Shown one piece after another: positions 13,360-28,518 of a stretch of 39,737 nt of DNA. Positions within the stretch are counted from its first letter, which is position 1. Every line of letters begins with the position of its first letter. The notes beneath the pieces were generated by a model. It saw only the letters and a program-made list of their open reading frames with translations, had not been told where the DNA came from and made no database searches. The translations under genes were made by a program, and so were the position numbers. The DNA lies in contig JAUHWN010000017.1 in assembly GCA_030424665.1 (NCBI GenBank), forward strand, positions 1-39,737. The letters run 5' to 3'. Source of the stretch: Bdellovibrionia bacterium (GTDB lineage Bacteria > Bdellovibrionota > Bdellovibrionia > Bdellovibrionales > JAGQZY01).

Positions 13360-14466
13360 CTAGGTGGCCAACAGATCTTCGGGTACATCGCCCTCAATAA
13401 TAGATTGGGAAAGTCTTTTATGGTTAGCGTGGCCTACAAGTTTGGCCGCTTGATCAAAAGGAACGGGATCGATTTGTTGAATAAAATTTTCTTTAATTTC
13501 TGCAACAAGTTTCGCGTTTTCTTCAAGAGTTCCTTTAGAAATGGCGCCGTCACTAACAGCCTTTTCAATGGCGTCGATAGCAATCTGCGGGCTATCGAAT
13601 TCGTTACAATAGAGCAAGATGTTACACCCTGCTTGAATAGCTCGCACGGCAATTTCTCCGACTTCCCAGTGATTGCGAAGAGCCTTCATATCTAGATCAT
13701 CGGAAATAACTAAGTTTCTAAATTTAAATTCTCCTCGGATATAATCACGAATTATCGATTCAGATAGAGTAGCTGGCCATTCCGGATCTAAGTTTTTGTA
13801 GCGGATATGGGCGGTCATCACCATGGGAAGGCGCGCTCGAAATACTTTTTTGAATGGAGACATGTGGATGTTTTTAAGGGTATCAAGATCGGTGTCGTCT
13901 TCGGGCAATTCAATATGGGAATCAGGCTTGACACCACCATGACCTGGAAAGTGTTTGGCACAGGGGATGATACCCGACTTAATAAATCCTCTGACGAGTG
14001 CTGATCCTAGCTTCGCAACGATCTCTGGCTCCTTGCCAAGGGCTCGATCACCAATGATTTCATTTTCTGGATTAGTGAGAACATCAATACAAGGGGAAAA
14101 ATTGAGGTTTATTCCCATGGCCGTAAGTTCGCTTCCCATCATATTGGCAAACTTAAAGGCAACAGATGTAGAGTCGAGTGCCGACATTTTTTCAGCGGTT
14201 GGCCATTGGGTAAAAGGGGCTTTTAGGCGAGCGACGCGGCCGCCTTCCATATCAATAGCAACAAAGAAGGGTGAGTGGTCTGACTTTTGATTGCGCAGAC
14301 CCTGGAGTTCGCTGACTAGGGCGTGGATTTGTTCGGGGCTCTCTACGTTGCGCCCAAAAAGTGTTACGCCGGCAATGTCATTCTCCGTTAGGAACTTTTT
14401 TTCGTCCTCAGTTAGACTTGTTCCTTGAATTCCAATCATCATCTGTTGGCCAATTAACTTCTTCAC
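13360..14466 (-). CDS. nagZ: Beta-N-acetylhexosaminidase (glycoside hydrolase family 3)
   Basis: FVAIDMEGGRVARL, NLNFSPCIDV, IIGDRALG, CAKHFPGHGGVKPDSHIELPED, ISDDLDMKAL. Confidence 0.92.
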   Translation of the reverse strand: MKKLIGQQMMIGIQGTSLTEDEKKFLTENDIAGVTLFGRNVESPEQIHALVSELQGLRNQKSDHSPFFVAIDMEGGRVARLKAPFTQWPTAEKMSALDSTSVAFKFANMMGSELTAMGINLNFSPCIDVLTNPENEIIGDRALGKEPEIVAKLGSALVRGFIKSGIIPCAKHFPGHGGVKPDSHIELPEDDTDLDTLKNIHMSPFKKVFRARLPMVMTAHIRYKNLDPEWPATLSESIIRDYIRGEFKFRNLVISDDLDMKALRNHWEVGEIAVRAIQAGCNILLYCNEFDSPQIAIDAIEKAVSDGAISKGTLEENAKLVAEIKENFIQQIDPVPFDQAAKLVGHANHKRLSQSIIEGDVPEDLLAT

Positions 14467-14558
14467 TCGATCTCCCTGGCTCGGAAATTATTAACCTTTA
14501 ATTTCTCACTATTCAGAGGCCAAATCAATCTAGCCTTTTGTAAAGGACGGGATATTTA

Positions 14559-15383
14559 CTAAATAACTTGGCTGCTTTGTCCCTGGAGCCTTCTGCGCAT
14601 TTCATCTCCGAGCACGAAGATGCTCAGAACAAATAGAAAGAGAAAGAGTCCAGGAAAAAAGCTTATATGCGGAGCCTCCCATAAAAATTGCCGTCCTGAA
14701 CTTAAAAGAATACCCCACGAAGGTTCAGTAGGGGGTATTCCGAAGCCGAGAAAAGTCAGGCTCGATTCGGCGAGTAAAACTCCGGCAAACCCAAAAGTCA
14801 TCTGCACAAACAGAGGAGAAAAAATATTGGGCCAAATATGGAAAATAATGAGTCTTGGATTTTTAGCTCCCAAGGATTTAGAACTTTGAACGAAGTCTTT
14901 GAGTTTAATTGATTGAACTTCGCCGCGCACGAGGCGAGCGTATCCAGCCCATCCAGTAATTGAGAGGGTAATTATCAAACTCCCTATTGAGGCGGACTGA
15001 ATAACTGCAGCAATTGTAAGTACCAGAAGAAGACCTGGAAATGAAAAACATATATCTACAATTCTCATTATTATTTGATCAGTTATCCCGCCGAAATAAC
15101 CAGACAGGGTTCCAAGGATAAGGCCCAATAAAACTGAAAGTAGGGTGGTGCCCAGTGAGATCGTTAGTGAAGTTTTTGTTCCTAGAATAACCTGACTTAA
15201 AACATCGACACCGTTTTGATCGCGACCAAAAGGAGCTTCCAAACTCGGAGCACTGAGGCGTTGACTCAGCTCCATATCTAAAGCCCCATCGTTTGAGAAA
15301 ATTGGAAACAGGAAACTTCCAGAGACTATTAAAATCAAAAAAGCGATGGATAGAAGGGTTTTATAGTTTAATTTTCTTTTCAT
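14559..15383 (-). CDS. ABC transporter permease, DppC/OppC family
   Basis: PFGRDQNGVDVLSQVILGTKTSLTISLGTTLLS..., ESSLTFLGFGIPPTEPSWGILLSSGR. Confidence 0.92.
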   Translation of the reverse strand: MKRKLNYKTLLSIAFLILIVSGSFLFPIFSNDGALDMELSQRLSAPSLEAPFGRDQNGVDVLSQVILGTKTSLTISLGTTLLSVLLGLILGTLSGYFGGITDQIIMRIVDICFSFPGLLLVLTIAAVIQSASIGSLIITLSITGWAGYARLVRGEVQSIKLKDFVQSSKSLGAKNPRLIIFHIWPNIFSPLFVQMTFGFAGVLLAESSLTFLGFGIPPTEPSWGILLSSGRQFLWEAPHISFFPGLFLFLFVLSIFVLGDEMRRRLQGQSSQVI

Positions 15384-16303
15384 GACCCACCTCGTAGTTT
15401 GGGCTGGGTCAAGACATAGAGAAAATCGGTAATAATTCCGGCGAGTACATAAGTACTAGCTACAAAAAGTACACTCCCTTGAATCACGGGGAAGTCTCTT
15501 CTCTGTAAGCTTTCAAAAATAAGAGTACCAAGACCAGGCCAATCAAAAATTGTTTCGACGATAACTGTCCCAGTGAGGAGGACACCGAGTAGAATTCCGA
15601 GAAGTGTGAGTATGGGGCTTAGTGCATTCTTTAGTACATGTTTAAATAATACTTGATTAGGAGTATTCCCTTTTGCCAGAGCGACTCGCACGTAGTCTTC
15701 TCCGAGAACTTCTTGCACGCTTGCAAGAGTCATGCGGTAAATCAGAGCAATTAATCCCGAAGACAAGGTAAGAACGGGTAGAATTAGGTTAGCTATTCCT
15801 CCTCGTTCTGAAACCGGTAGAATTTCTAATTGAACTGCAAAAATAAAAATAAGAATGGGTCCTAGCCAGAATGACGGCATCGCCAAGCCCACGAGACTTA
15901 ATGTTGATGACAATCCTCTAGTCATTTTTCTTTTTCTTGGAGCAGCCCATACGCCAAGGGGCACACCAATTAAGAATGAAAATATAAGAGCGACGGCCCC
16001 CAGTTCGAGGGTTGCTGGTAGCCGTTCAATAATTTCTTGGCTGACGGGGCGCTTTGAAAAGAGCGAGTGACCGAGATCCCCTTGCATAAGACCTAGAAAG
16101 TAATTTTTAAATTGGGTAAAGAAGGGCTGATCGAGGCCCAGGCTTTTTCGAAGAGCTTCTTTGTCAACGGCAGAGGCTTGTTCGCCGAGCATGAGATCAA
16201 TAGGGTCGCCAGGCACAAAGTGAATCAACAGAAACGTAATTAACAGCACCCCTAAAAGACTCACCAGTGATCCTATGAGTCTCTCAAGGATGGATCGACT
16301 CAA
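15380..16303 (-). CDS. ABC transporter permease, DppB/OppB family
   Basis: LITFLLIHFVPGDPIDLMLGEQAS, YRMTLASVQEVLGEDYVRVALAKGNT, VETIFDWPGLGTLIFESLQRRDFPVIQG; 4-bp overlaps with both neighbours. Confidence 0.93.
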   Translation of the reverse strand: MSRSILERLIGSLVSLLGVLLITFLLIHFVPGDPIDLMLGEQASAVDKEALRKSLGLDQPFFTQFKNYFLGLMQGDLGHSLFSKRPVSQEIIERLPATLELGAVALIFSFLIGVPLGVWAAPRKRKMTRGLSSTLSLVGLAMPSFWLGPILIFIFAVQLEILPVSERGGIANLILPVLTLSSGLIALIYRMTLASVQEVLGEDYVRVALAKGNTPNQVLFKHVLKNALSPILTLLGILLGVLLTGTVIVETIFDWPGLGTLIFESLQRRDFPVIQGSVLFVASTYVLAGIITDFLYVLTQPKLRGGS

Positions 16304-17193
16304 TTGGATTTTCCCGATTGGTTGCCATTGCCTGAATTATTCACTTTTACTTTTTGTTGATCCATCATTTGTTGTTGCTGAATCATTGTACTGGCATTGG
16401 GGTTTTTATGAAGTTCATTGATTTTTCCACTGGGCATGCCGCCAAAGAGTAACTCAATGTTTTTGGGGTTGTAGGGCTGGTTCGAAGTCGCATCGATCGG
16501 ATCGTTAACGAGTTCGAGAGTCATGCCACTTGCGGGGGCTCGAACAAATAGGGGCTCTCCCTTAATGTTCATAACGTTAACAAATTTAGAACCCTTAAAA
16601 GTGTTGAGAATGCGAAATGCCTTTTGCCCTTTGTAAGCAATTTCGCTTTCGACATAAACTTCTCCGGGGTAAACCTTTGCCTCTTCTTCGGCAATAGCCT
16701 GAAAGCGAAACTTATTACCCTTGGAAACGCCCTCTTTACTTTGTAGGAGCATGTAGGTGAGAAAGGTGGATTGGAAGGTGTGGGGTCCAATCTTTGACTG
16801 GAGCTTTTGCGGCCTATTGTTGACTGTCACGATGGCATCCATGACGCCATTAATATAAGAGGCATCGATAGATTTCGTTTGTGTGCCGCGAACGAGAGTA
16901 TAACGGTGCCTTAGGGGCTTTAGGCTTTGATCAGCTGTCGCTTGTATACTCTCTTGGATGTCACCTGCCGAGGGACTCGTTCTTAAAAAAGATGTGCTCG
17001 TGAATTGCTTTTTTTTAGCGTCGTACTCATATCTTTGAATGAAAAAGCCGATATGTTGGTTTTGTTGCATGATTCGGAAGTAGCCTTCAAAGATCACATT
17101 TGCCTGCACGTTTACTGAAAAAAATAAGACACCAATGAAGAGTGAAAGACTGTAAAAGCTCGATTTTAGTCGATATTTTGCCGCTATTTCCAT
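16300..17193 (-). CDS. Secreted protein of unknown function co-transcribed with the permeases
   Basis: Signal peptide SLSLFIGVLFFSVNVQA; 4-bp overlap with dppB-like gene. Confidence 0.6.
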   Translation of the reverse strand: MEIAAKYRLKSSFYSLSLFIGVLFFSVNVQANVIFEGYFRIMQQNQHIGFFIQRYEYDAKKKQFTSTSFLRTSPSAGDIQESIQATADQSLKPLRHRYTLVRGTQTKSIDASYINGVMDAIVTVNNRPQKLQSKIGPHTFQSTFLTYMLLQSKEGVSKGNKFRFQAIAEEEAKVYPGEVYVESEIAYKGQKAFRILNTFKGSKFVNVMNIKGEPLFVRAPASGMTLELVNDPIDATSNQPYNPKNIELLFGGMPSGKINELHKNPNASTMIQQQQMMDQQKVKVNNSGNGNQSGKSN

Positions 17194-17271
17194 ATCTGAT
17201 TCTCTCTTGAGAACAGAGAACTGTCAAAGCAGGGAATGCTTATTTATAATGACGGATTAGGAGGACTAGGG

Positions 17272-19218
17272 ATGTTACGCAATGAAAAAGGACAAATGGC
17301 CATTTTTGTTGCCCTTATTTTTCAGGTGCTTTTTGTTTTCTTTGCCATGGTCGTGAATGTCGGACTTATCGTTCACGATAAAATCGCCTTACAAAATGCT
17401 GTCGATTTATCAGCCTATTACGGAGCCATGAAGCAAGGTGAAATTCTCAATAACATGGCCCATATTAATTACCAAATCAGACAGGTTAACAAATTAGCGA
17501 CGGTTCGCTATCGCGTGATCGGGGATTTTGGTTTAACAAGTCACCCGGTTCGCTCGGGCACTCCTAACTCTGATACAACAGCGTACTCCGCCATACCAGG
17601 AACAGATTCGGCCAATGTTTGTGTGACCCATGCCGATTGGCAAGAGTCCAATGCCACGGATAGAGATGCAACCCTCTGTAATGATATTAACTTTTCAGTT
17701 TCAAACCTTCCATCGGTCAATGTGATCGCCGGGTTCTTGGGTTTTGTTAATGGGATTGCGAGTTTAGTAAATTCACTCCAGGGCGCTTTCGACCGTCGCT
17801 GTGAAATGTCGGGCCCTATCAATTGGAATTTTGCCGCAAAAATAATGGCCATGTATCGAATGGACCTCAATGTCAGAAAGAAAATGTTTGAGTCCCTGGG
17901 TAGAAATTTAACGGGTAGCCCTTCAGATTTTCTCGATAAAAATGGTGATTCGGTTGCAGAGGGTGCACAAAAGACACTTTTTAAAAACATGAGTGTCCAA
18001 GACTTTTCTTTTAGAAATATAGATTTCGAATTTATGAACGGTTTAGCTCAAGGGGATTGCGGTAGTTTTGAACAGGCATTTAGCGACATTCAAATTCTTC
18101 CCATGCTCTTTTATTCTGACTTCAATGATCCTGGTGGTGGTTGTCAGCGAGTGGTTCAACCAATTTCAACTCTTCCGCTTTCGGCGGGAGCCTACCCTGG
18201 CTTGGTTCCCATGGGTCAACCTCTAGAAGTTATGGCACGAGGAGAGCCCGCCGACCCCCTCATGCGTTCAAGTCTTGGTTACGAAAAAAATCCGTGGTGC
18301 ATGGCCTATGTCGGAGTGAAAGCATCAATGACAACGAGAAAACCTTTTATGCCCTTTGGTGGTACCATTTCAATGGAGGCCAGAAGTTTCGCAAAACCTT
18401 TTGGTGGGCGAGTGGGACCATGGCACGGAAGTACCTGGTCCCGGGCGGCGGTTCGATCTTCGGGCGCGCCGACTGATGCTGTAGCACCGCCAAGAGCCAA
18501 TGCTGCAGGCGGAGGTGCTACCGGAAGAATGAACTTTGCGCGCTATCCTGGCGATGGCTTTGGCTATCGCTCAGCGGCAGCTCTAGCGGCGTGGAATCAG
18601 TTTTTCGTCAACAATATCGTTGCGAAAAATGCAGTTCGTTACGCTGATTACGATCACCTCATCACGCCAAATCAATACGAGGGTGCTGGTGACTCATTGG
18701 CTAGGGGTATCTTTAGAAATTTTGAGCTTGCGGCCATCGCTCCTGATATTTTTGATATTACTTACTATTCAATCGAACCACGCTATTATAATAATTATTT
18801 GCGAACCCAACTGGCTCGCGGAACTTATCCATCTCTTTCTCCGATACCCGATTTAGGGGCTGTTAAACCAGATTCCCCAGCAATTGCGAGAAATGTAGAA
18901 GATCAACTCAATGTCGTTCTCTCTGGAAATGCACAAGATCTCGGTCTCGCTTTTTGGAAGGTGCGAAACATCGATCATGTTTTAACAAGCTGGGCGCAAA
19001 AACGGGCCGTTGAATACTCCTTTCCCGACGAGCGCTTTGGTGCTTGTTTTGCCAAACCGAACGATGCTAGGCCCAACCCAGGAAACTGTATTGCCGGCGG
19101 CCGGAATGGCTATTCGGTGAAGCATGTTGGTAAGAAGTATTTAAACTTCAATGGACATGAGCTCGGTAACGACGGGAGTTCTGGTCCGATCCGCAATAGT
19201 CCCCCGGATGACTTTTAA
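17272..19218 (+). CDS. TadG/TadE-like membrane-anchored protein
   Basis: MLRNEKGQMAIFVALIFQVLFVFFAMVVNVGLIVHDKIALQNAVDLSAYYGA is typical of TadG-like N-termini; SD TAGGAGG at 17258-17264 supports ATG 17272 over ORF-track 17236. Confidence 0.75.
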   Translation: MLRNEKGQMAIFVALIFQVLFVFFAMVVNVGLIVHDKIALQNAVDLSAYYGAMKQGEILNNMAHINYQIRQVNKLATVRYRVIGDFGLTSHPVRSGTPNSDTTAYSAIPGTDSANVCVTHADWQESNATDRDATLCNDINFSVSNLPSVNVIAGFLGFVNGIASLVNSLQGAFDRRCEMSGPINWNFAAKIMAMYRMDLNVRKKMFESLGRNLTGSPSDFLDKNGDSVAEGAQKTLFKNMSVQDFSFRNIDFEFMNGLAQGDCGSFEQAFSDIQILPMLFYSDFNDPGGGCQRVVQPISTLPLSAGAYPGLVPMGQPLEVMARGEPADPLMRSSLGYEKNPWCMAYVGVKASMTTRKPFMPFGGTISMEARSFAKPFGGRVGPWHGSTWSRAAVRSSGAPTDAVAPPRANAAGGGATGRMNFARYPGDGFGYRSAAALAAWNQFFVNNIVAKNAVRYADYDHLITPNQYEGAGDSLARGIFRNFELAAIAPDIFDITYYSIEPRYYNNYLRTQLARGTYPSLSPIPDLGAVKPDSPAIARNVEDQLNVVLSGNAQDLGLAFWKVRNIDHVLTSWAQKRAVEYSFPDERFGACFAKPNDARPNPGNCIAGGRNGYSVKHVGKKYLNFNGHELGNDGSSGPIRNSPPDDF

Positions 19219-19519
19219 TGGTAGTTTTTAAAAGTGTATGAAAGTGAATAGACAAAATATTTGTCACTGTCTAAAGACTTACCAGGTGTCGGACCGAAAT
19301 TGCCTCAAAATGAAACACTGTTGTTTTCTGAGACCCTAGTTTCGGCAAAAATCCCAGTATTCATCTATACTAATTTAAAGGGATAAGTGCGAAAAAACTC
19401 AGTTTTTGTTGCCTCATTCCGATAAAGACTTATGTCGTGGAGGACTCTCGTAGTCCGTTCTCTGCAGGTCAAAGACCTCCTCCGCTAAAAAACTGATCTC
19501 CAAAGAAGAGGGGGAGTTC

Positions 19520-20848
19520 GTGTCGAAAAACATTCGATTACTATTCATTTTAATCAGCGGCCTTAGCCTTTCATTGATGGCTCACGCCAACCAGCCAGAT
19601 CCTAACGATATGGATGGTGATGGTTATCGAGATTCAACCTATGGTTCTGGTACCGAGGTTAACGATATTTCGAATAACCAGTATTACAATAATACGAATG
19701 CGAACTCTAACCGACATGACTCTCGAACCATGAATGAGCGTTTAACCGACGCACGAAATGGTCTTGATTCGGCCCAAGGAAATCTTGGTGCTAGTCAACG
19801 AGCTCTATCAGAAGCCATTCGAGCGGCCGAGCAAGCCAATCGCTACCGTGATGACTACAACCCTTACTCGGATCCAGCTGTGCAAGCAGCACAAAGGCAA
19901 GTTCAAGCCAATGAACAAGCCGTCATGCAGGCTGAACAGCATTTACGAAGTGAACAGAGAGTCGCCGGAGCCACTAACAACGCTACAGATGATATGCGTG
20001 ACGATGTGGCCAACGACTTAAATGATGCTGCAAATACCTATGAACTCGGCGGACCCGATTCGGTGAACCGAGGTGCTAAAGGAGCTCAAGCCCAACAAAT
20101 GATCGGTGCGGCCATGAGTGCTGCTGCTGCCGCCGCCTTCTTTTCGAAGTGCGGTTGTCCTGGTTGTCAAATTAACTGTGTACTCGGCGGTCTTTCTGCT
20201 GCCCAAGCTGCCATGATGATGATGGGGGCTGCGCAAACGGGTTCAGGTACAATTAATCCAACCAATGTTGGCTATGGAAGTAGTGGAACAAGTTATGACC
20301 CATCAATATATAGTGGTTCTAACAATCCCAACGCTAGCGGTGTTAGCACAATGGGAGGGCTCAATTCCAACGATCCGGCAGCCATACAGGCCCGAGGGGT
20401 CCTCAATAAACTCAAAGAAATGGGCTATGAATTTAATTCTGATGGAACAGTGACTCTGCCTGACGGAACTAAAGTTTCTTCAAGTGCCTTCAACTCAGCT
20501 AAAGGAATGAAGGACGCTGGATTCTCTGATGCAGAAATCGCCAATGCATTGGCGGCGATGGATCAGGTAAAAGCACAAAACGCTAAGGCCAATGTTGTGG
20601 CTGTTGGTGTTGAAGGCGGCGGCGGTGGCCGTTCTGCCGGAGCTGTGAATGCTTATGGATCTGCGAGCCGTTACGGGAAAAATAAATATGGACGCAAGGG
20701 TAAAGATGCCAAGCGTGGAATTGCCAGCGTTGCTGGAATGAAAAAGAAATTCGGAAGTGACATGATTGGTGTTGCTAGTGACGACATCTTTAAAATGATC
20801 CGTCGTCGATATGATAAGAAACGTAAATCGAAAGCCTTTTTGGAATAA
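19520..20848 (+). CDS. Secreted protein P1: coiled-coil, Ala/Met-rich helices around CxCxxCxxxC, Gly-rich basic C-terminus
   Basis: GTG start with GAGGGGGAG SD; signal peptide LLFILISGLSLSLMAHA; C-terminus DDIFKMIRRRYDKKRK. Confidence 0.8.
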   Translation: MSKNIRLLFILISGLSLSLMAHANQPDPNDMDGDGYRDSTYGSGTEVNDISNNQYYNNTNANSNRHDSRTMNERLTDARNGLDSAQGNLGASQRALSEAIRAAEQANRYRDDYNPYSDPAVQAAQRQVQANEQAVMQAEQHLRSEQRVAGATNNATDDMRDDVANDLNDAANTYELGGPDSVNRGAKGAQAQQMIGAAMSAAAAAAFFSKCGCPGCQINCVLGGLSAAQAAMMMMGAAQTGSGTINPTNVGYGSSGTSYDPSIYSGSNNPNASGVSTMGGLNSNDPAAIQARGVLNKLKEMGYEFNSDGTVTLPDGTKVSSSAFNSAKGMKDAGFSDAEIANALAAMDQVKAQNAKANVVAVGVEGGGGGRSAGAVNAYGSASRYGKNKYGRKGKDAKRGIASVAGMKKKFGSDMIGVASDDIFKMIRRRYDKKRKSKAFLE

Positions 20849-20865: not shown

Positions 20866-22131
20866 ATGAAAAAGAGTTTATCTATTATTTTTTGTATGAG
20901 TTTACTAGCGGCTGCCCCCAATGTTTTGGCTCAGGCAACTAGAACCCAGCCAGGTCAATCCGAAGGTGGATGTCAGCAAATCGCAAATGACACTCACAAT
21001 TACGTCAACGAGATCCGTCAGCCAGGCGGAGCCCTTGAGCAGGCACAAATTATTTCTGCAGAGGGTGCTGATCAGTCAGAGCTGTCACGCGAAGGTGCGC
21101 AAACAGGCTTCGATAGCATGGTTGATACGAATGCTCGACTTCTTATGTTGAGAGAGCGTTTAAGTGGTCTAACAGGATCTTGTGAAGAAACCTGTTCGCA
21201 ACTCGAAAGAGATCTTGCTCAACAGAAAAGCTATCATGAGCAAATGGCTTCGTCGACAATGATGCCAGCCTCAGCCCAGCACCAGCAGATGGCTCAGGAC
21301 TTCGAAAGCAGAAGGTCGCGTGCTGAACAGGATTTGAATTCCTGTCGAACAGCTGAAAATGAAGAAGGTGGCCAGATGGATGGTCAGCTCGGCAACCTAG
21401 CTCAATTACTTCCAGCCCTCATGGCAATGATGCAAGGAATGGGTGGAGCCGACGACCCTGAAGCGGTTGAGTCGGCCGACAATAGCTGTATTGGTATGGC
21501 AAAACAAAAAATTGAAGCTGCACAAAATGGTGAAGATCCGGCCTATATCGATGCCATCGAAAAAACCTATAACAATCTATGTAACGATAGTGGTGTTGCC
21601 ATTGCTGACCTTGGTTCGGTCGGTGGAGCGACTCCTAACGGAAGTGTCACTGCCAGCCGTACAGGTAACTTGCCCGATAGCCGTGCTATCGATCAAAGTT
21701 TTGCCGGCGGTCTTGAAAAAGACGGTCAGAGCTCTAAAGTCGAAAGCTTTGGTGGATCTGGCGGTGGATTCAACGGTGGATCTGGTGGTGGCGGTCGAGC
21801 AGCGAGCCTCAATGGTCGTCGTCGCGGTGATCCTAATAAATTAAATACCGACATTATGAAGGGAACTTCAGGTGGTGGAATTGGTGGTGGTCGTCGCGGT
21901 GGCGGTGGTGCCTATGCCGCTGGTGGACCTCGTAGTGGTCGATATGGCCGCACACCAAACGCCGACGCTAGTAAAGCCAATTTAAAGCAGTTTTTACCAG
22001 GTGGAAAAAAGTATCGTGGTCCCGCATCGGCTGCCGCTAAAAAAGGCGAAGTCAGTGGTGCTCTTGGGCCATCGAATTTTGAAAAAATAACTCGACGATA
22101 CCAAAAGGTACAGAAGTCGTTACTTCCCTAG
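20866..22131 (+). CDS. Secreted Gly-rich protein P2 with shared C-terminal module
   Basis: Signal peptide SIIFCMSLLAAAPNVLAQ; KVESFGGSGGG...LNTDIMKGTSGGGIGGGRRGGGG...LKQFLPGGKKY...GPSNFEKITRRYQK. Confidence 0.85.
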   Translation: MKKSLSIIFCMSLLAAAPNVLAQATRTQPGQSEGGCQQIANDTHNYVNEIRQPGGALEQAQIISAEGADQSELSREGAQTGFDSMVDTNARLLMLRERLSGLTGSCEETCSQLERDLAQQKSYHEQMASSTMMPASAQHQQMAQDFESRRSRAEQDLNSCRTAENEEGGQMDGQLGNLAQLLPALMAMMQGMGGADDPEAVESADNSCIGMAKQKIEAAQNGEDPAYIDAIEKTYNNLCNDSGVAIADLGSVGGATPNGSVTASRTGNLPDSRAIDQSFAGGLEKDGQSSKVESFGGSGGGFNGGSGGGGRAASLNGRRRGDPNKLNTDIMKGTSGGGIGGGRRGGGGAYAAGGPRSGRYGRTPNADASKANLKQFLPGGKKYRGPASAAAKKGEVSGALGPSNFEKITRRYQKVQKSLLP

Positions 22132-22151
22132 GGAAGGTAATAAATAAATCC

Positions 22152-22190
22152 GTGAGTTTTTCAAGAGTAGGGAGGCTTTGAGAAACTCAC
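22152..22190 (+). other. Intercistronic RNA stem-loop between P2 and P3 genes
   Basis: GTGAGTTTTTCAA / TTGAGAAACTCAC: 13 bp stem with one G-U wobble, 13-nt loop containing AGGGAGG; no following U-tract. Confidence 0.7.
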
Positions 22191-22203
22191 AAGCGAGGGT
22201 TTA

Positions 22204-24426
22204 ATGAAAGTATATGTAGTGATTATTTTAACTTTAGCGAGCTTCGGCTTGGCTAAAGCCTCAGAAGTCTTTCTAGCTCCGGTGGATCTAGATGGGGGAC
22301 TATCTGCGTGGGTTCAAGATATTGAACTCCTTCGAATCGAACATCAAAGTAACTACGTAGAAGTCGACCCTGACAGTCTTTTTGTTCAAGCACTATTAAA
22401 GTTTGAAGAAAGTTATCCAACGAAAAATTACGTGGTTTTAAAGCCGTCGATACAGAAGCGCCCAAATCGTGGCTTAGCTTCAGTTGGTTGTGACCCTACA
22501 GACTTCTTTTGTGAAGATCCCAGCGGAACTTCTGTTTACGAAGACGTGGCAGCGGAACCAGTAGATGCAGAAGAAATTGTGGATTTTCCGCAAGAGAATA
22601 ATGATCTGGTCAGATATAATGAATGTGTGGCAGAGGGAATGAGTCGTGAGGATTGTGCTCAGTCTTTGCTTCCACCAATACCTGAGGAGCGTCCATCGCA
22701 AGCAATGGATGCTTATAATGAGTGTGTTGCCTCCAGAGATCCTTTGGACTGTAATCATCTTCATCCCGATTGGCAGGGTCCAGCGGCTCCGATAGCAGAA
22801 GACCGGCCCCAAGGATGGCATTATCCAGATCCAGTGAACCCAGATATTGAAGTAACAAACTGGGACACCTGTATGCAGGCCTATGAAAATTCAAGTCTTT
22901 GCGGTTACTGGGGTTTTGATCCAAACAATCCAGATGCTGAGTATGATCCCACACAAGTCGGGCGCGTAGATCCTAGTGCCGTTCCTGAAGGGGTTATTGA
23001 CCCGAGTGCAGAAATTACCCCTGGAAGAGTCAACCCCAACGCTGAGGTCCCTCCCGGTGAAGAGGCACCGAGGGTTGCTGGTCCGAGGAAACCCAGTGAA
23101 GAAGTCTTCAATAGATGTGAGCGCAGTTACTCAAGGGCGGCTCCCATTTGTGGATCGGATATGAATGATCCCGACCGCAATGCTGTACAAAACTTTTTAA
23201 GGACTCAAGCCGGTCCAACAATGATGACGGTCGCAAATTTACTCTCCCAGTTTTCTGCCATGAATTCTGCGAGTTCAGCACAAGACACCCAGGGGATGCT
23301 CAATGCCTGTAAAAGAGCGCAAAGAGTAGCTACTGGAATGACGGCACTCAACGGAGCTTGGGCTGGTGGTTGTGCTCTTATGCGAAGACAGTGTGAAGAC
23401 TCTTGTGTTGAGTACATCGATGCGGCCACAATCTATCGTCGTTCGGGCGATGTTTCTCCTGAAGATTTTGACGAAGTGACAGAAAAATTTCAAAGAGCGC
23501 GTCGCCTAGCTTATCAATGTCGAACCAATGGTCCAATGACCCAATCGACACGAGCGGGAATCATGGGTGGTGCTCAGTCGGCCGTTTTAATGTCACAATC
23601 GAGACTCTGTGTAGAGCAACTCGAGGCTTTGGGGCCATGTTCCGGACCGGATGCCCATACAAAGCCAGAGTGTAGTGATTACTGTGGTCGCCCCGAAAAC
23701 GCTGGGAGTCCTGCTTGTGCAACCATTGCAGGAATTGATTGTACGGATCCCTCTCAAGCTCGATCCAATCCAGCCTGTATTTGTCAGCAAAACCCCAACG
23801 ATCCAGCTTGTACTGGTGGCCTTAATCCGATGCCCACTGGAAACAACACAAATAATGGCGGGCGCACGGGCTACGGAACTCCTTCGGGTACTGGTGGAAG
23901 CACGAGCTTTGCCAGTTCTACAACAGGTTATGGCCCTGCTTCAGGCCCTGCTTCAGGCCCTGGTGGCCCCGGAGCGCGCAATCGAAATGGTGGTAATCAA
24001 AATGCCAAAGTCGAGAGCTTTAACGGTTCAGGCGGTAGTGGTCCAGCTGGTGGCGGTGGCGGCGGAGCCACAGGTTTTGGTGGTGGATCGAACCCTGGAG
24101 CTACTGGTATAGCTCTTAAAACTGATATTATGGGCGGTACAACTGGTGGAGGACTTGGTCGTCGTCGCGGTGGCAATGGTCGCCTAGGGCGTGTGGTTCG
24201 TGGTCGTCGAGCCGGTACTAATAACCAAAACCAACAAAACCAAGGTGTGGATCTCGCCTCCTTTTTACCAGGTGGCGCTGGCTATGCCCAGTACCAGAAA
24301 CAAAGAGGTCTTGCTGGAAATATGACGATCAAAGCGAGAGATGGAATAACTGGACCTTATGGGCCGAGCTTATTTGATAAGGTGTCGCGACGCTATCGAA
24401 TTAAAGAAAGAACGCTCACTCCATAA
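22204..24426 (+). CDS. Secreted Cys/Gly-rich protein P3 with shared C-terminal module
   Basis: Signal peptide VVIILTLASFGLAKAS; repeated Cys-pair units; KVESFNGSGGS...LKTDIMGGTTGGGLGRRRGG...LASFLPGGAGY...GPSLFDKVSRRYRIK. Confidence 0.85.
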   Translation: MKVYVVIILTLASFGLAKASEVFLAPVDLDGGLSAWVQDIELLRIEHQSNYVEVDPDSLFVQALLKFEESYPTKNYVVLKPSIQKRPNRGLASVGCDPTDFFCEDPSGTSVYEDVAAEPVDAEEIVDFPQENNDLVRYNECVAEGMSREDCAQSLLPPIPEERPSQAMDAYNECVASRDPLDCNHLHPDWQGPAAPIAEDRPQGWHYPDPVNPDIEVTNWDTCMQAYENSSLCGYWGFDPNNPDAEYDPTQVGRVDPSAVPEGVIDPSAEITPGRVNPNAEVPPGEEAPRVAGPRKPSEEVFNRCERSYSRAAPICGSDMNDPDRNAVQNFLRTQAGPTMMTVANLLSQFSAMNSASSAQDTQGMLNACKRAQRVATGMTALNGAWAGGCALMRRQCEDSCVEYIDAATIYRRSGDVSPEDFDEVTEKFQRARRLAYQCRTNGPMTQSTRAGIMGGAQSAVLMSQSRLCVEQLEALGPCSGPDAHTKPECSDYCGRPENAGSPACATIAGIDCTDPSQARSNPACICQQNPNDPACTGGLNPMPTGNNTNNGGRTGYGTPSGTGGSTSFASSTTGYGPASGPASGPGGPGARNRNGGNQNAKVESFNGSGGSGPAGGGGGGATGFGGGSNPGATGIALKTDIMGGTTGGGLGRRRGGNGRLGRVVRGRRAGTNNQNQQNQGVDLASFLPGGAGYAQYQKQRGLAGNMTIKARDGITGPYGPSLFDKVSRRYRIKERTLTP
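23932..23962 (+). repeat. 12-bp tandem repeat GGCCCTGCTTCA x 2.6, in frame (GPAS)
   Basis: Direct reading: ggccctgcttca ggccctgcttca ggccctg. Confidence 0.9.
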
Positions 24427-24491: not shown

Positions 24492-25619
24492 ATGACTAAG
24501 AAAAATTTAAACATCGTTGGAATTATGAGCGGAACGAGTATGGATGGAGTTGACTACGTCCTTTGTCGTTTCAAAAATGTTGGATCGTCGCCAAAGATTG
24601 AATTCCTAGATTTAAAGTCGGTGCAATTTTCAACTAAGCTTCTTGATAAACTTCATTTGGCAGCACAAAACAAGCTCAGTCTCTGGGAGAGTTCTGAACT
24701 CCATTTTGAATTGGGAGAGTTTTATTCTAAAAAATTGAAGGCCATCGCCAAGTCAAAGGCTTGGAAGATCGATTTAATCGGGCTCCACGGGCAAACGGTT
24801 TACCATAGGGGGAGGCATTCAAGCTTGCAATTGGGAGATGCAAATTTTCTAAGCCAAGACTTCAATTGCCCGGTGGTTTCTAACTTTCGAGCGGCTGATG
24901 TCGCTCTGGGCGGCCATGGTGCGCCCTTAGCGCCTTTCTTTCACAAAACCTTGCTATTACCCCTCTTGAAGTCAAAGGCCCTGGCATTTCACAACCTCGG
25001 GGGAATTTCTAATCTTACCTATCTTAAAAAGACGGGATCAGGCCGTCTTCAATTTCATTCATTCGACACGGGACCGGCTAACATTCTCATGAATCTCGAA
25101 TACATGCGTAATTTTCCGGACTCTCGAGGTTATGACCGAAATGGTTTGATGGCATCCAAGGGCACAGTTTCGACTACAATTTTAACTAAAATGTTGAGGC
25201 ATCCTTTTTTGCGTAAGAAGTTTCCGAAGAGTTGTGGTCGCGAAGAGTTTGGTGAAGAGTTTTTAAAAATCTACCGCAATTCCTTGAATCGTCTGAGTGT
25301 TGAAGACCGCTTAGCGACACTTTGTGAGTTTTCGGCCCTTACAATTGCCGAGGCCTATTCGAAGCTTTTAAAAGACCTTCCCGAAACGATCTACTTTTCT
25401 GGAGGTGGTGTTTACAATAGAAGTCTGATGTCTCGCATACAATACTACTTACCCGATGTCGAAGTTAAAACTTCTCTAGATTTAGGCTGGCCTGCCAACG
25501 CTATTGAAGGCGGTGCTTTTGCTCTTTTAGCCGGCTATCGCTATTTCGAAATGCCTTTAGAGTTAAAGCCTATTACTGGGGCAAGAAAAAATAGTTTATT
25601 GGGTCAAGTGACGATTTAA
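24492..25619 (+). CDS. anmK: Anhydro-N-acetylmuramic acid kinase
   Basis: IVGIMSGTSMDGVDYVLC, GLHGQTVYHRG, QLGDANFLSQDFNCPVVSNFRAADVALGGHGAPLAPFFHK, FHNLGGISNLTYL, FDTGPANILMN. Confidence 0.95.
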   Translation: MTKKNLNIVGIMSGTSMDGVDYVLCRFKNVGSSPKIEFLDLKSVQFSTKLLDKLHLAAQNKLSLWESSELHFELGEFYSKKLKAIAKSKAWKIDLIGLHGQTVYHRGRHSSLQLGDANFLSQDFNCPVVSNFRAADVALGGHGAPLAPFFHKTLLLPLLKSKALAFHNLGGISNLTYLKKTGSGRLQFHSFDTGPANILMNLEYMRNFPDSRGYDRNGLMASKGTVSTTILTKMLRHPFLRKKFPKSCGREEFGEEFLKIYRNSLNRLSVEDRLATLCEFSALTIAEAYSKLLKDLPETIYFSGGGVYNRSLMSRIQYYLPDVEVKTSLDLGWPANAIEGGAFALLAGYRYFEMPLELKPITGARKNSLLGQVTI

Positions 25620-25625
25620 AGCTTT

Positions 25626-26522
25626 CTAAGCGGGTCTCTTATTGAGTTCATCGAGGCTGTGAATATACTTTTCTTCCCAAATGGCTTGGGCAATAATGTA
25701 ACCGGCCTCAGTTTTAAGGGGTATCGAAATCCCTCTTGAGCTGGCCAAACTTTTCTGTGCTACTTCGTTTTCTTTAGCAATGTGAGAGCACTCAATTAGA
25801 ATGGGCCTTGCATTTGATTCTTTCCAAAGGTAGGTACTCGCTCTTCTAAATATGGTCTTAGCAGCCGTAACACAGATCAATTGAGAATCCAGTGCCACGT
25901 CTGTATTGAGAGATTTACTAATGCGATCAACAACTGAACGATCAAAGCTGATTACAAAAACACAGCGGGACTTACCCGATTTGAAGGTAATGCGAACATG
26001 TTCTCTTTCGGAGTTAAGGTTACCAGGCTTTTTGAGCTGAGTTAATTCTTGCTCGGGCTCAAGATTCATAACCTTCGAGATAAATCCCACAGTACCCTGG
26101 ATATAGGCATTGAGAACGGCAGCACCTATTCTCTGATCGATTTTTCCAAGTCTAAGTTGATTATTGACCTCATCGAGAAGGGTACTCATCTCGAATGGTT
26201 TTGGAATCATTTTAAGGTGAGAGTATTTTCTCTCTAAGTTGGGATCGGGATACCCGGTGATAACGATAATCGGAGTATTATTATTGAGCTGGCTGTCGAG
26301 TGCCGTTTGAATAAAAGCCTGGCCCTCTCGTTTTGGCATTTTAAGATCAGTGATAATTATATCGAAAGCTTGAAACTTAATCTTATGACTAGCCTCAACA
26401 CCATCGCTGGCGTGAACCACCATCAGGGATTCACCGTAATTCATCTCTATGTAGTTATCGATAAGCTCTCTAACCTCTGGTTCATCATCGGCTATAAGAA
26501 CCCATTTTTTGGCTCCAGACAT
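25626..26522 (-). CDS. CheY-like response regulator fused to a CheX-like/unknown C-terminal domain
   Basis: Receiver VLIADDEPEVREL...IIITDLKMPKREGQ...IVITGYP...MIPKPFEM; C-terminal IGAAVLNAYIQGTVGFISKVMN... weakly resembles CheX. Confidence 0.7.
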   Translation of the reverse strand: MSGAKKWVLIADDEPEVRELIDNYIEMNYGESLMVVHASDGVEASHKIKFQAFDIIITDLKMPKREGQAFIQTALDSQLNNNTPIIVITGYPDPNLERKYSHLKMIPKPFEMSTLLDEVNNQLRLGKIDQRIGAAVLNAYIQGTVGFISKVMNLEPEQELTQLKKPGNLNSEREHVRITFKSGKSRCVFVISFDRSVVDRISKSLNTDVALDSQLICVTAAKTIFRRASTYLWKESNARPILIECSHIAKENEVAQKSLASSRGISIPLKTEAGYIIAQAIWEEKYIHSLDELNKRPA

Positions 26523-26677
26523 ACACTATTTAATTCGGCTTTTCGTGCTCTTACGAAAGGCCAAGGGGACTAAAAATAGTAAATTTAAAGAATACTTAAC
26601 TAAACCTTAGTCTTGGTCTTAATCTAGGATGGCTCGTATCGAGATAAATCTTATAACGATAATGATAAGTCATATTC

Positions 26678-27457
26678 TCATGTTGAGATAGATTTCTTAA
26701 GTTCAACGTAATACGAATGATCGTTATCAGCCAAAGCTTGTAGTTTCAACTCCGCTTCCTTCAAACCTTCGGGGTTTCCAACTTCAAACCATAATCCTTC
26801 GGCGCGAAGAACATTTACTGAGAAGCCTTTTTCGATGGCCTTGTCTAATACTCCGTAGAGAATATTGGACTCTCCGTCGGCGGGGATATGATCAATGATT
26901 TCTTTTGATAAGGCCATGTATCCTGTAAAGTGAAGGCCGCTTAGATGTTTTTCGGGTGTGTTTTTGCCAAAACCTTTAACCTCGTCATTGCCATTAACCC
27001 AGACACCACCAAATTGAGTTCCGACACCGGGGTGCTCAATACACAAGATCGTGGCAAGAGAGTCGCTGCTCTTTCGATATTCCGAGAGCTGTTTCAAAAT
27101 GCCATCGGACTTTGGAAGAAAAATTTCATCACCATTGCAGTACAAAATATCATCGCAGTTATCTAAGAAACCCCAGGCATGCCTCAACCCTCCAGCTCCA
27201 CCAAGTATGGCATCCCTTTCGAGACTAAAAGAAAACTCTTCACCATCTAGTCTGAGAGGCTCTAGGGCTTCGCGCATTTTTTCTGGAAGATAGTGGAGAT
27301 TAAAAATAAAATTTTTAACACCGCTTTTTCTTAGTAAATGAATGCTGTGATAAACCAAGGGGACCTGATTAACTCTTATTGCAGGCTTGGGCGTCGAAAG
27401 GGTGAGTGGTTTTAACCGTGTTCCCTTTCCGGCAGTGAGTATAAATGATTTTGTCAT
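26678..27457 (-). CDS. murU: MurNAc-1-phosphate uridylyltransferase-like nucleotidyltransferase
   Basis: FILTAGKGTRLKPLTLSTPKPAIRV, YCNGDEIF, WFEVGNPEGLKEAE; 4-bp overlap with amgK-like kinase. Confidence 0.82.
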   Translation of the reverse strand: MTKSFILTAGKGTRLKPLTLSTPKPAIRVNQVPLVYHSIHLLRKSGVKNFIFNLHYLPEKMREALEPLRLDGEEFSFSLERDAILGGAGGLRHAWGFLDNCDDILYCNGDEIFLPKSDGILKQLSEYRKSSDSLATILCIEHPGVGTQFGGVWVNGNDEVKGFGKNTPEKHLSGLHFTGYMALSKEIIDHIPADGESNILYGVLDKAIEKGFSVNVLRAEGLWFEVGNPEGLKEAELKLQALADNDHSYYVELKKSIST

Positions 27458-28518
27458 GCTTCGAATCTTTTATCGTAGAGACCGTGATTTTCTAAAATGT
27501 CATTAAAGTCTTTGTATTCACTAAAGTGCTCTAAGGACGCTCTGACGTGTTTAAGAGTTCTTCGAAGGTATTTTAAATAGCGACTATCATTTCGATTGAC
27601 CTTAAAGCTTGCAAAGCTGCCGCAGGCCTTGAAACATCTTTGAATCGATTGAAGTTGATAAACGTTTAAAAACTCATCTTTAGAATTTGGTACATAGGAA
27701 TGTTCTTTAGCAGATTCCAGGTAGTAATCGATACAGTAATCGTGGACATGAGAATTCAGTTTTACATAAGAATCTTTAAATAGGCTGACTAAGTCATACT
27801 GAATGGGGCCCATGCGAGCATCTTGAAAATCAATGACCCGCATTTTACCAAACTTAATCATGACATTTCGAGAGTGATAATCGCGGTGACAAACATACTG
27901 TTCTTGGTTTGAGAGCTTTTCACAGATATCAGAAAAAATGGAAGCTAAAGATTTTTTCTCCGATTCACTGAATTGAATTTTACAAAGATTTTCTAAGAGA
28001 TGCTCCCGTCCGTAGTTCATTTCCCAAAGGAGCTTTTCTTTATCAAAAACTGTGGTGAAGGCAGTAGATTCTTGATCGAGCTTTTTTGTAGCGAAGTGAA
28101 TCTTTATGAGTTCATCAATAGCAAGTTGATAAAAAGGAATAACTAATTCTTGGTTCTGATTCTCCCAAAATTTTCTCTCTAGAGTGAGGTCGCCCAGGTC
28201 TTCAAGTAACATAAGGCCTAGCTTTGGAGATTTTTTAATGACTTCTGGAACTTGAACACCAGCTCTTGAAAATAAACTGTGAACACTTAAAAAGGGAAAC
28301 TGTGGAGAATCTTCAAACGGCTCCCAAGCCATAATGACATAGGATTTTTCCTCCTGTACGAGCCGATAATACCTTCGGGTTGAGGCATCACCTGCCAACG
28401 GGAAGATTTCGTATTTTCCAGATTCAAAAGTGGGACTCAAGAAATCAGAAATATTTTTTTCGTCCTTAGACTCTCTAAATACCTTCATAGGCAAACTTTC
28501 TACAGCATTTAAACTCAT
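27454..28518 (-). CDS. amgK: N-acetylmuramate/N-acetylglucosamine anomeric kinase-like (APH family)
   Basis: PLAGDASTRRYYRL, MLLEDLGDLTLE, VCHRDYHSRNVM, VIDFQDARMGPIQYDLVSLFKDS. Confidence 0.85.
   Translation of the reverse strand: MSLNAVESLPMKVFRESKDEKNISDFLSPTFESGKYEIFPLAGDASTRRYYRLVQEEKSYVIMAWEPFEDSPQFPFLSVHSLFSRAGVQVPEVIKKSPKLGLMLLEDLGDLTLERKFWENQNQELVIPFYQLAIDELIKIHFATKKLDQESTAFTTVFDKEKLLWEMNYGREHLLENLCKIQFSESEKKSLASIFSDICEKLSNQEQYVCHRDYHSRNVMIKFGKMRVIDFQDARMGPIQYDLVSLFKDSYVKLNSHVHDYCIDYYLESAKEHSYVPNSKDEFLNVYQLQSIQRCFKACGSFASFKVNRNDSRYLKYLRRTLKHVRASLEHFSEYKDFNDILENHGLYDKRFEA

Follow-up and report, generated by a model that had tools for sequence, protein, structure and literature searches.

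A short homologous module at the C-terminus of otherwise unrelated, Sec-exported proteins, present many times per genome and confined to one lineage, is a feature of the C-terminal domains (CTDs) of the type IX secretion system (T9SS) and of the GlyGly-CTERM/rhombosortase, PEP-CTERM/exosortase, and MYXO-CTERM systems. To our knowledge, it is not settled how Bdellovibrio-like predators display the proteins that touch their prey; many of the genes in attachment class I encode hypothetical proteins. Tips of the TadEFG type are interchangeable in the Kil pili of Myxococcus, and a tip complex has been predicted for Bdellovibrio (PMC12075869). Here we describe a C-terminal tail, like the T9SS and CTERM modules in the respects listed above, that was recognized in DNA from a Bdellovibrionia bacterium. 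The window, meaning the whole analyzed stretch of 39,737 nucleotides, is one contig (G000:C229) of a 4.4 Mb draft genome, and the tail ends the products of three + strand genes, P1, P2, and P3, that follow a gene for a TadG-like protein. It is a portable C-terminal module found on unrelated secreted families throughout the Bdellovibrionota, usually behind a flexible Gly-rich linker.

The first-pass annotation of the window had noticed a series of ordered C-terminal blocks in P2 and P3, the last of them common to all three proteins, preceded by N-termini that do not look alike. Each of these observations was borne out. All of the quoted peptides lie in frame (Table 1), and from KVESF to the end of the proteins P2 and P3 align with a score of 208, compared with 63 for shuffled sequences (0/5000 shuffles as good). 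Their last ~55 residues reach a score of 88, where shuffled sequences average 23.5 (standard deviation 4.7; again 0/5000), and BLAST matches the shared region with an E-value of 2.9e-11. Toward the N-terminus, P2 and P3 resemble each other no more than expected by chance (482/5000 shuffles score as well), and a profile of the P3-type N-terminal domain matches P3 at 2e-29 and does not match P2. Taken together, the shuffle scores and the profile indicate that the C-terminal halves of the two proteins are related and that their N-termini are not. The last 45 residues of P1 are also related to those of P2 (0/5000 shuffles as good) and P3 (3/5000), with similarity between P1 and P2 falling to chance level outside the tail in the same kind of test. 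Profile–profile comparison confirmed that the P1 and P2-type tails are homologous (E 2.9e-7, probability 93%).

The blocks differ in how widely they are distributed. KVESF is limited to P2 and P3 of the window’s genus, and the L[ND]T[ND]I[LM] block was found in only some members of the P3 family, mainly those of TadG operons. Most of the order’s P2/P3-type proteins contain FLPGG, and the F-x-x-[IV]-x-x-RRY tail extends across the phylum and includes P1. This last block can be written D/S-N-I-F/W-x-x-I/V-x-x-R-Y, within a tail consensus of roughly G-[IV]-[TGA]-x-x-x-[DS]-N-[IF]-[FW]-x-x-[IVM]-x-x-[RK]-Y-x-x-[K/x]. No other part of P1 is nearly as well conserved as the tail (mean identity 0.57, compared with 0.36).

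Copy numbers were obtained from six-frame profile searches of whole genomes, 72 of which belong to the order Bdellovibrionales. Within the order, the P1-type tail occurs in 69/72 genomes at about one per genome, and the P2/P3-type tail in 58/72 at 1–10 copies per genome. The tail lies 0–24 residues from the C-terminus in every protein recovered (73/73 of P2/P3 type and 53/53 of P1 type). Genes for P1 and P2-type proteins form a conserved pair, and in most loci that span enough sequence the TadG, P2-type, and P1 genes lie side by side; the named loci all come from Bdellovibrionales or relatives, except for two weak deltaproteobacterial TadG matches. Most multi-copy carriers within the order belong to one Cys-rich family, that of P3. 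Its alignment of 70 proteins has 12 Cys columns conserved at 96–100%, and its members share a layout of signal peptide, helical domain, Cys knot (DCxxPxxAxxxxCxCxxNPxxxxC, with 12 near-invariant Cys in all), long Gly-rich linker, FLPGGK, and tail. Since most multi-copy carriers come from this single family, the case for modularity within the order depends chiefly on P1, P2, and a small number of unusual architectures. An ORF (open reading frame) with Cys residues in a style like that of P3, and lacking the tail, was also seen almost at the end of the contig (window 39313–39720; ...CVISC...ACSDVCSGYLSRIETF); it may be truncated at its N-terminus.

Evidence for modularity extends to a second family of the phylum (f17), probably Bacteriovoracaceae/Halobacteriovoraceae. 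Weak matches there pointed to secreted proteins nearby whose tails are similar, and a profile built for this family (SIFxxISNRYxxSGLxRLF) finds 1–15 large, putatively secreted proteins per genome in most of its genomes. The order-wide tails and those of the second family are homologous (E 2.7e-6 and 2.4e-10), and all listed matches but one, an obvious false match, end within about 32 residues of the C-terminus. In three of these genomes, 33 tail proteins of roughly 500–1100 residues form 13 BLAST clusters when compared without the tail, and none of them resembles the P1 or P3 bodies of the order. Pfam scans of 27 tail proteins of relatives returned only YkuD_2, DUF3011, DUF7107/Dickkopf-like, and two DUFs below the cut-off. 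The YkuD_2 match (E 1e-46) is to an L,D-transpeptidase with a tail in the second family (L186 428–2779; G066:C1:1098500–1102000), a possible peptidoglycan-modifying cargo of the same tag. The first-pass annotation had read its pattern as that of a C-terminal module, and this reading holds, with the tail found at the C-terminus of proteins with many unrelated N-termini and several times per genome.

The strict core motif occurs 162 times in carriers, always in the last 60 residues, compared with 7 times in 356,000 residues of other ORFs, a count that is partly built in since carriers were picked by tail profiles. N-terminal hydrophobic cores are commoner in carriers (88/81/78%) than in other ORFs (49%), and windows resembling a transmembrane (TM) segment are nearly absent from the last 60 residues (0/73 P2-type, 1/53 P1, and 0/90 other proteins). 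An AlphaFold2 (AF2) model of P3 residues 255–740 contains a helical Cys domain, a disordered linker (286–426 of the fragment), and then a C-terminal helix in the tail, with a mean predicted local distance difference test (pLDDT) score of about 79 for the helix block. The tail had no match in Pfam, NCBIfam, or Protein Data Bank (PDB) sequences, and hmmsearch of PDB with tail and TadG profiles likewise returned none.

The coordinates of the genes and shared peptides are collected in Table 1. The operon of TadG, P1, P2, and P3 is embedded in a muropeptide-recycling neighborhood (window 13360–17193 and 24492–28518) of nagZ, oppBC-like permease genes, anmK, and amgK-like and murU-like genes, which recurs across the order. 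The gene anmK adjoins P genes again in several relatives, and in Bdellovibrio NamZ takes the position that AnmK holds in other members of the order.

Table 1. Genes, shared C-terminal regions, and in-frame peptides of the P1–P3 locus (window coordinates).
Feature	Coordinates	Strand	Evidence
TadG-like protein, 660 amino acids (aa), with N-terminal Tad (TadE/G) domain	17236..19218	+	PF13400 E 4.7e-8, over cut-off
P1, 442 aa, GTG start, secreted, founder of P1-tail family	19520..20848	+	
P1 C-terminal tail SVAGMKKKFGSDMIGVASDDIFKMIRRRYDKKRKSKAFLE	20711..20845	+	A2/A6 profiles E 1e-24 / 1e-20
P1 peptide DDIFKMIRRRY	20780..20812	+	in frame
P2, 421 aa, secreted; N-terminus unrelated to P3, C-terminal half same as P3	20866..22131	+	
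P2 shared C-terminal region: KVESF, Gly-rich linker, LNTDIM, FLPGG, tail GPSNFEKITRRYQKVQKSLLP	21736..22128	+	tail profile E 4e-22 / 6e-20
P2 KVESF	21736..21750	+	in frame
P2 LNTDIM	21841..21858	+	in frame
P2 FLPGG	21991..22005	+	in frame
P2 GPSNF onward	22066..22128	+	in frame
P3, 740 aa, canonical member of the order-wide Cys-rich family, with Gly-rich linker and tail	22204..24426	+	profile match 2e-29
P3 shared C-terminal region: KVESF, Gly-rich linker, LKTDIM, FLPGG, tail GPSLFDKVSRRYRIKERTLTP	24007..24423	+	tail profile E 2e-21
P3 KVESF	24007..24021	+	in frame
P3 LKTDIM	24115..24132	+	in frame
P3 FLPGG	24262..24276	+	in frame
P3 GPSLF onward	24361..24423	+	in frame
anmK, muropeptide recycling, downstream neighbor of P3	24492..25619	+	PF03702 E 3e-79

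The TadG-like protein has a large conserved periplasmic domain, and its confident AF2 model, with a predicted template modeling (pTM) score of 0.83, shows a long pilin-type first helix (15–95). A full-length homologue is present in 72/72 genomes of the order, and Tad RcpC was found in 30/30 relatives checked. The TadG gene lies within 10–15 kb of a complete tad locus only in genus g2 of the window’s family; elsewhere the two are on other contigs or distant. In that genus (L237 17718–19742, L238 15065–17356) TadG is outside the P1/P2 operon, and the nearby tad locus holds a Bd0109-like (RHS) gene. A separate observation in one Bdellovibrio genome is that the TadG-like gene appears split into two ORFs (G028:C1:3666320–3668562), possibly by a frameshift or sequencing error, with the P1 and P2-type genes intact.

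Links to predation come from Bdellovibrio bacteriovorus. In the relative genome that we take to be strain HD100, the operon consists of genes for a TadG-like protein, a P2-type protein (486 aa), and a P1-type protein (336 aa), followed by NamZ, MurU-like, and AmgK-like genes. A second genome, presumably that of the epibiotic P. exovorus, keeps NagZ, and NamZ was not seen at this locus. The HD100 gene that adjoins P1 is NamZ, which fits Bd0152, a muramidase without a match in epibiotic predators (PMC11656739). A mutation in Bd0149 (c.767G>T, G256V) is common to two biofilm-forming, host-independent strains (PMC11323537). Among the ORFs upstream of NamZ, codon 256 is Gly (GGT) only in the P2-type gene, being Asn in TadG and Trp in P1. 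As G256V fits this ORF alone, we infer that Bd0149 is the P2/P3-type protein of HD100. Bd0150 is then most likely the counterpart of P1, since no other gene-sized ORF lies between P2 and NamZ. A transposon mutant of Bd0150 is in class I, showing no prey attachment, killing, or rounding (PMC6561027 Table 2), and the bd0149 promoter has a FliA motif and robust attack-phase activity (PMC12622784). In these predatory members, it appears fairly likely that the tail module is needed for prey contact.

Weak FliA-like promoter matches were also seen before the first P gene, at window 19399–19425 and ~48 bp upstream of the P2-type start in HD100. They are consistent with the published motif of the bd0149 promoter; in a scan of the regions upstream of HD100 P2 and window P1 the site is weak and near background, and it was not used as evidence.

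A docking or sorting function for the tail module is probable. Overall we favor, with a probability of roughly 55%, an explanation in which these are Sec-exported proteins with a C-terminal docking tag that is bound by a common envelope partner. P1, P2, and P3 would be exported by Sec, after which the tail would fold as an amphipathic helix on its flexible Gly-rich linker and one envelope partner would bind it. This partner could gather different N-terminal payloads at one site: the Cys-rich helical domain of P3, others in P1 and P2, and an L,D-transpeptidase elsewhere. Within the order, the likeliest partner or site would be the TadG-like minor pilin whose gene opens the operon, together with a Tad/Kil-type pilus, and payloads might thereby be positioned at the prey-contact apparatus. 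The TadG-like protein is a candidate receptor or pilus-tip partner of the tail, a role for TadG and the Tad pilus that we put somewhat below even odds. More tentative still, and rather doubtful at present, is the idea of a phylum-wide address tag by which payloads of adhesin-like, enzymatic, and Cys-rich kinds, as many as about 15 in one genome, would reach the Tad/Kil-type pilus used in prey contact.

Several observations weigh against these suggestions. The genome-wide scan suggested by the first-pass annotation, for many proteins with this ending per genome, found them in relatives (1–10 in the order, 1–15 in the second family) and not in the window’s own genome, which has exactly three carriers, P1, P2, and P3. 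Tail genes of the second family do not have TadG next to them, and two genomes (G026, G044) have full-length TadG without a detectable P1 or P2/P3 tail. A fold search of the P3 fragment and TadG models against PDB gave no match at E <= 0.001. In HD100, the identity of Bd0150 rests on gene order rather than annotation, and a second locus tag between Bd0149 and Bd0152 is unmatched, there being one gene-sized ORF. Furthermore, the Bd0149 mutation was accompanied by other mutations, and its own effect was not isolated (PMC11323537).

Different models could account for a conserved C-terminus of this kind. One is that the tail is a co-assembly helix, through which P1-type proteins would pair tail to tail with those of P2/P3 type and build a two-component surface fiber or complex. 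The two types of gene are neighbors across the order, in several loci of the second family two tail types (A7 and A8) are found near each other, and the P1 and P2-type tails are homologous but distinct; a ratio of about one P1 to 1–10 P2-type proteins per genome would suit a common core with interchangeable partners. Many carriers of the second family stand alone, however, and one is an enzyme, which a shared receptor fits better than a fixed pair. We regard co-assembly as unlikely. A slightly smaller chance is given to a dedicated secretion or outer-surface anchoring signal that would resemble CTERM tags or T9SS CTDs, have no connection with the Tad pilus, and be read by a transporter or peptidase. 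Such a signal would be expected to sit strictly at the C-terminus of unrelated cargos with signal peptide-like N-termini and to recur many times in a genome, as the tail does, but the tail has no TM segment of the kind found in LPXTG, PEP-, GlyGly-, and MYXO-CTERM proteins, no Pfam or NCBIfam match to CTERM or T9SS models, and a predicted short helix instead of a beta domain. No conserved peptidase or transporter neighbor was noticed, with no systematic search for one having been made.

Under ordinary descent, P2 would have arisen by partial duplication of P3 and exchange of the N-terminus, and the tail would be a conserved family end without special function. The restriction of KVESF to P2 and P3 of this genus does suggest a lineage-specific event, and KVESF looks like a local partial duplication; the Cys-rich domain shared by most multi-copy carriers in the order is in keeping with this as well. 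As an account of the tail itself, descent is very improbable, since the occurrence of the tail on unrelated proteins across the phylum already contradicts it: P1, of which the tail is the best conserved part, ends in it too, and so do many unrelated proteins of the second family, including the enzyme. A simple full-length duplication, the outcome named in the first-pass annotation as counting against a module, is excluded by the three unrelated N-termini that carry the tail in the window’s genome. Chance-level N-termini and the tail on unrelated proteins similarly rule out a pure P2/P3 duplication.

If the docking tag that we favor is indeed an address, its carriers could be found in any genome, its receptor could be fished with one peptide, and Bd0149 and Bd0150 would gain a testable molecular role. 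These two proteins have been hypothetical or uncharacterized, and the shared tail and its phylum-wide spread were not described (PMC6561027, PMC11323537). Should delivery to the prey-contact pilus prove true, the tag would provide a genome-readable list of the surface arsenal for predation. Among systems known from predators, the locus is closest to Kil/Tad Tip complexes, having a TadG-like minor pilin first in the operon, a Tad machine in all relatives checked, multiple tip-like payloads per genome, and a predatory lineage. It differs from them in that P1–P3 are Sec-type secreted proteins with a C-terminal tag and not pilins (no Tad or pilin match in Pfam or NCBIfam), and in that the TadG-like gene lies outside the tad locus, except near one in genus g2. 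In HD100, Bd0149 and Bd0150, the inferred orthologues of the window’s P2/P3-type and P1 proteins, belong to the same TadG-led operon. The hit locus, Bd0108/Bd0109, is also predation-linked, exported, and near tad genes. It encodes a disordered protein of 101 aa (Bd0108) and an RHS/YD-repeat protein (Bd0109) that are unrelated to P1–P3, in which the Pfam scan found no RHS match, and it was ruled out as the HD100 counterpart by protein type.

Comparison with the C-terminal tags is more direct. Searches of P1–P3 against Pfam and NCBIfam up to E 1 gave no LPXTG, PEP-CTERM, GlyGly-CTERM, or MYXO-CTERM family, and no match to T9SS models of the Por_Secre_tail type; in the open-licence literature we found no described C-terminal tag from Bdellovibrio. 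CTERM tags have a hydrophobic TM segment and a basic tail, and T9SS CTDs form a beta-sandwich of about 80 residues, whereas the tail has neither of these and is predicted to be a short helix after a disordered linker. Classification as a CTERM or T9SS tag is ruled out on these grounds, that is, by the lack of a TM segment with a basic cluster, of a model match, and of a beta-sandwich. The tail is a C-terminal tag not previously described, found on as many as about 15 secreted proteins per genome that are otherwise unrelated. Its own feature is a short amphipathic helix, as predicted, with an RRY core behind a Gly-rich linker, and the favored explanation, if true, would make it a sorting or docking module of the C-terminus that differs from the CTERM and T9SS types described so far.

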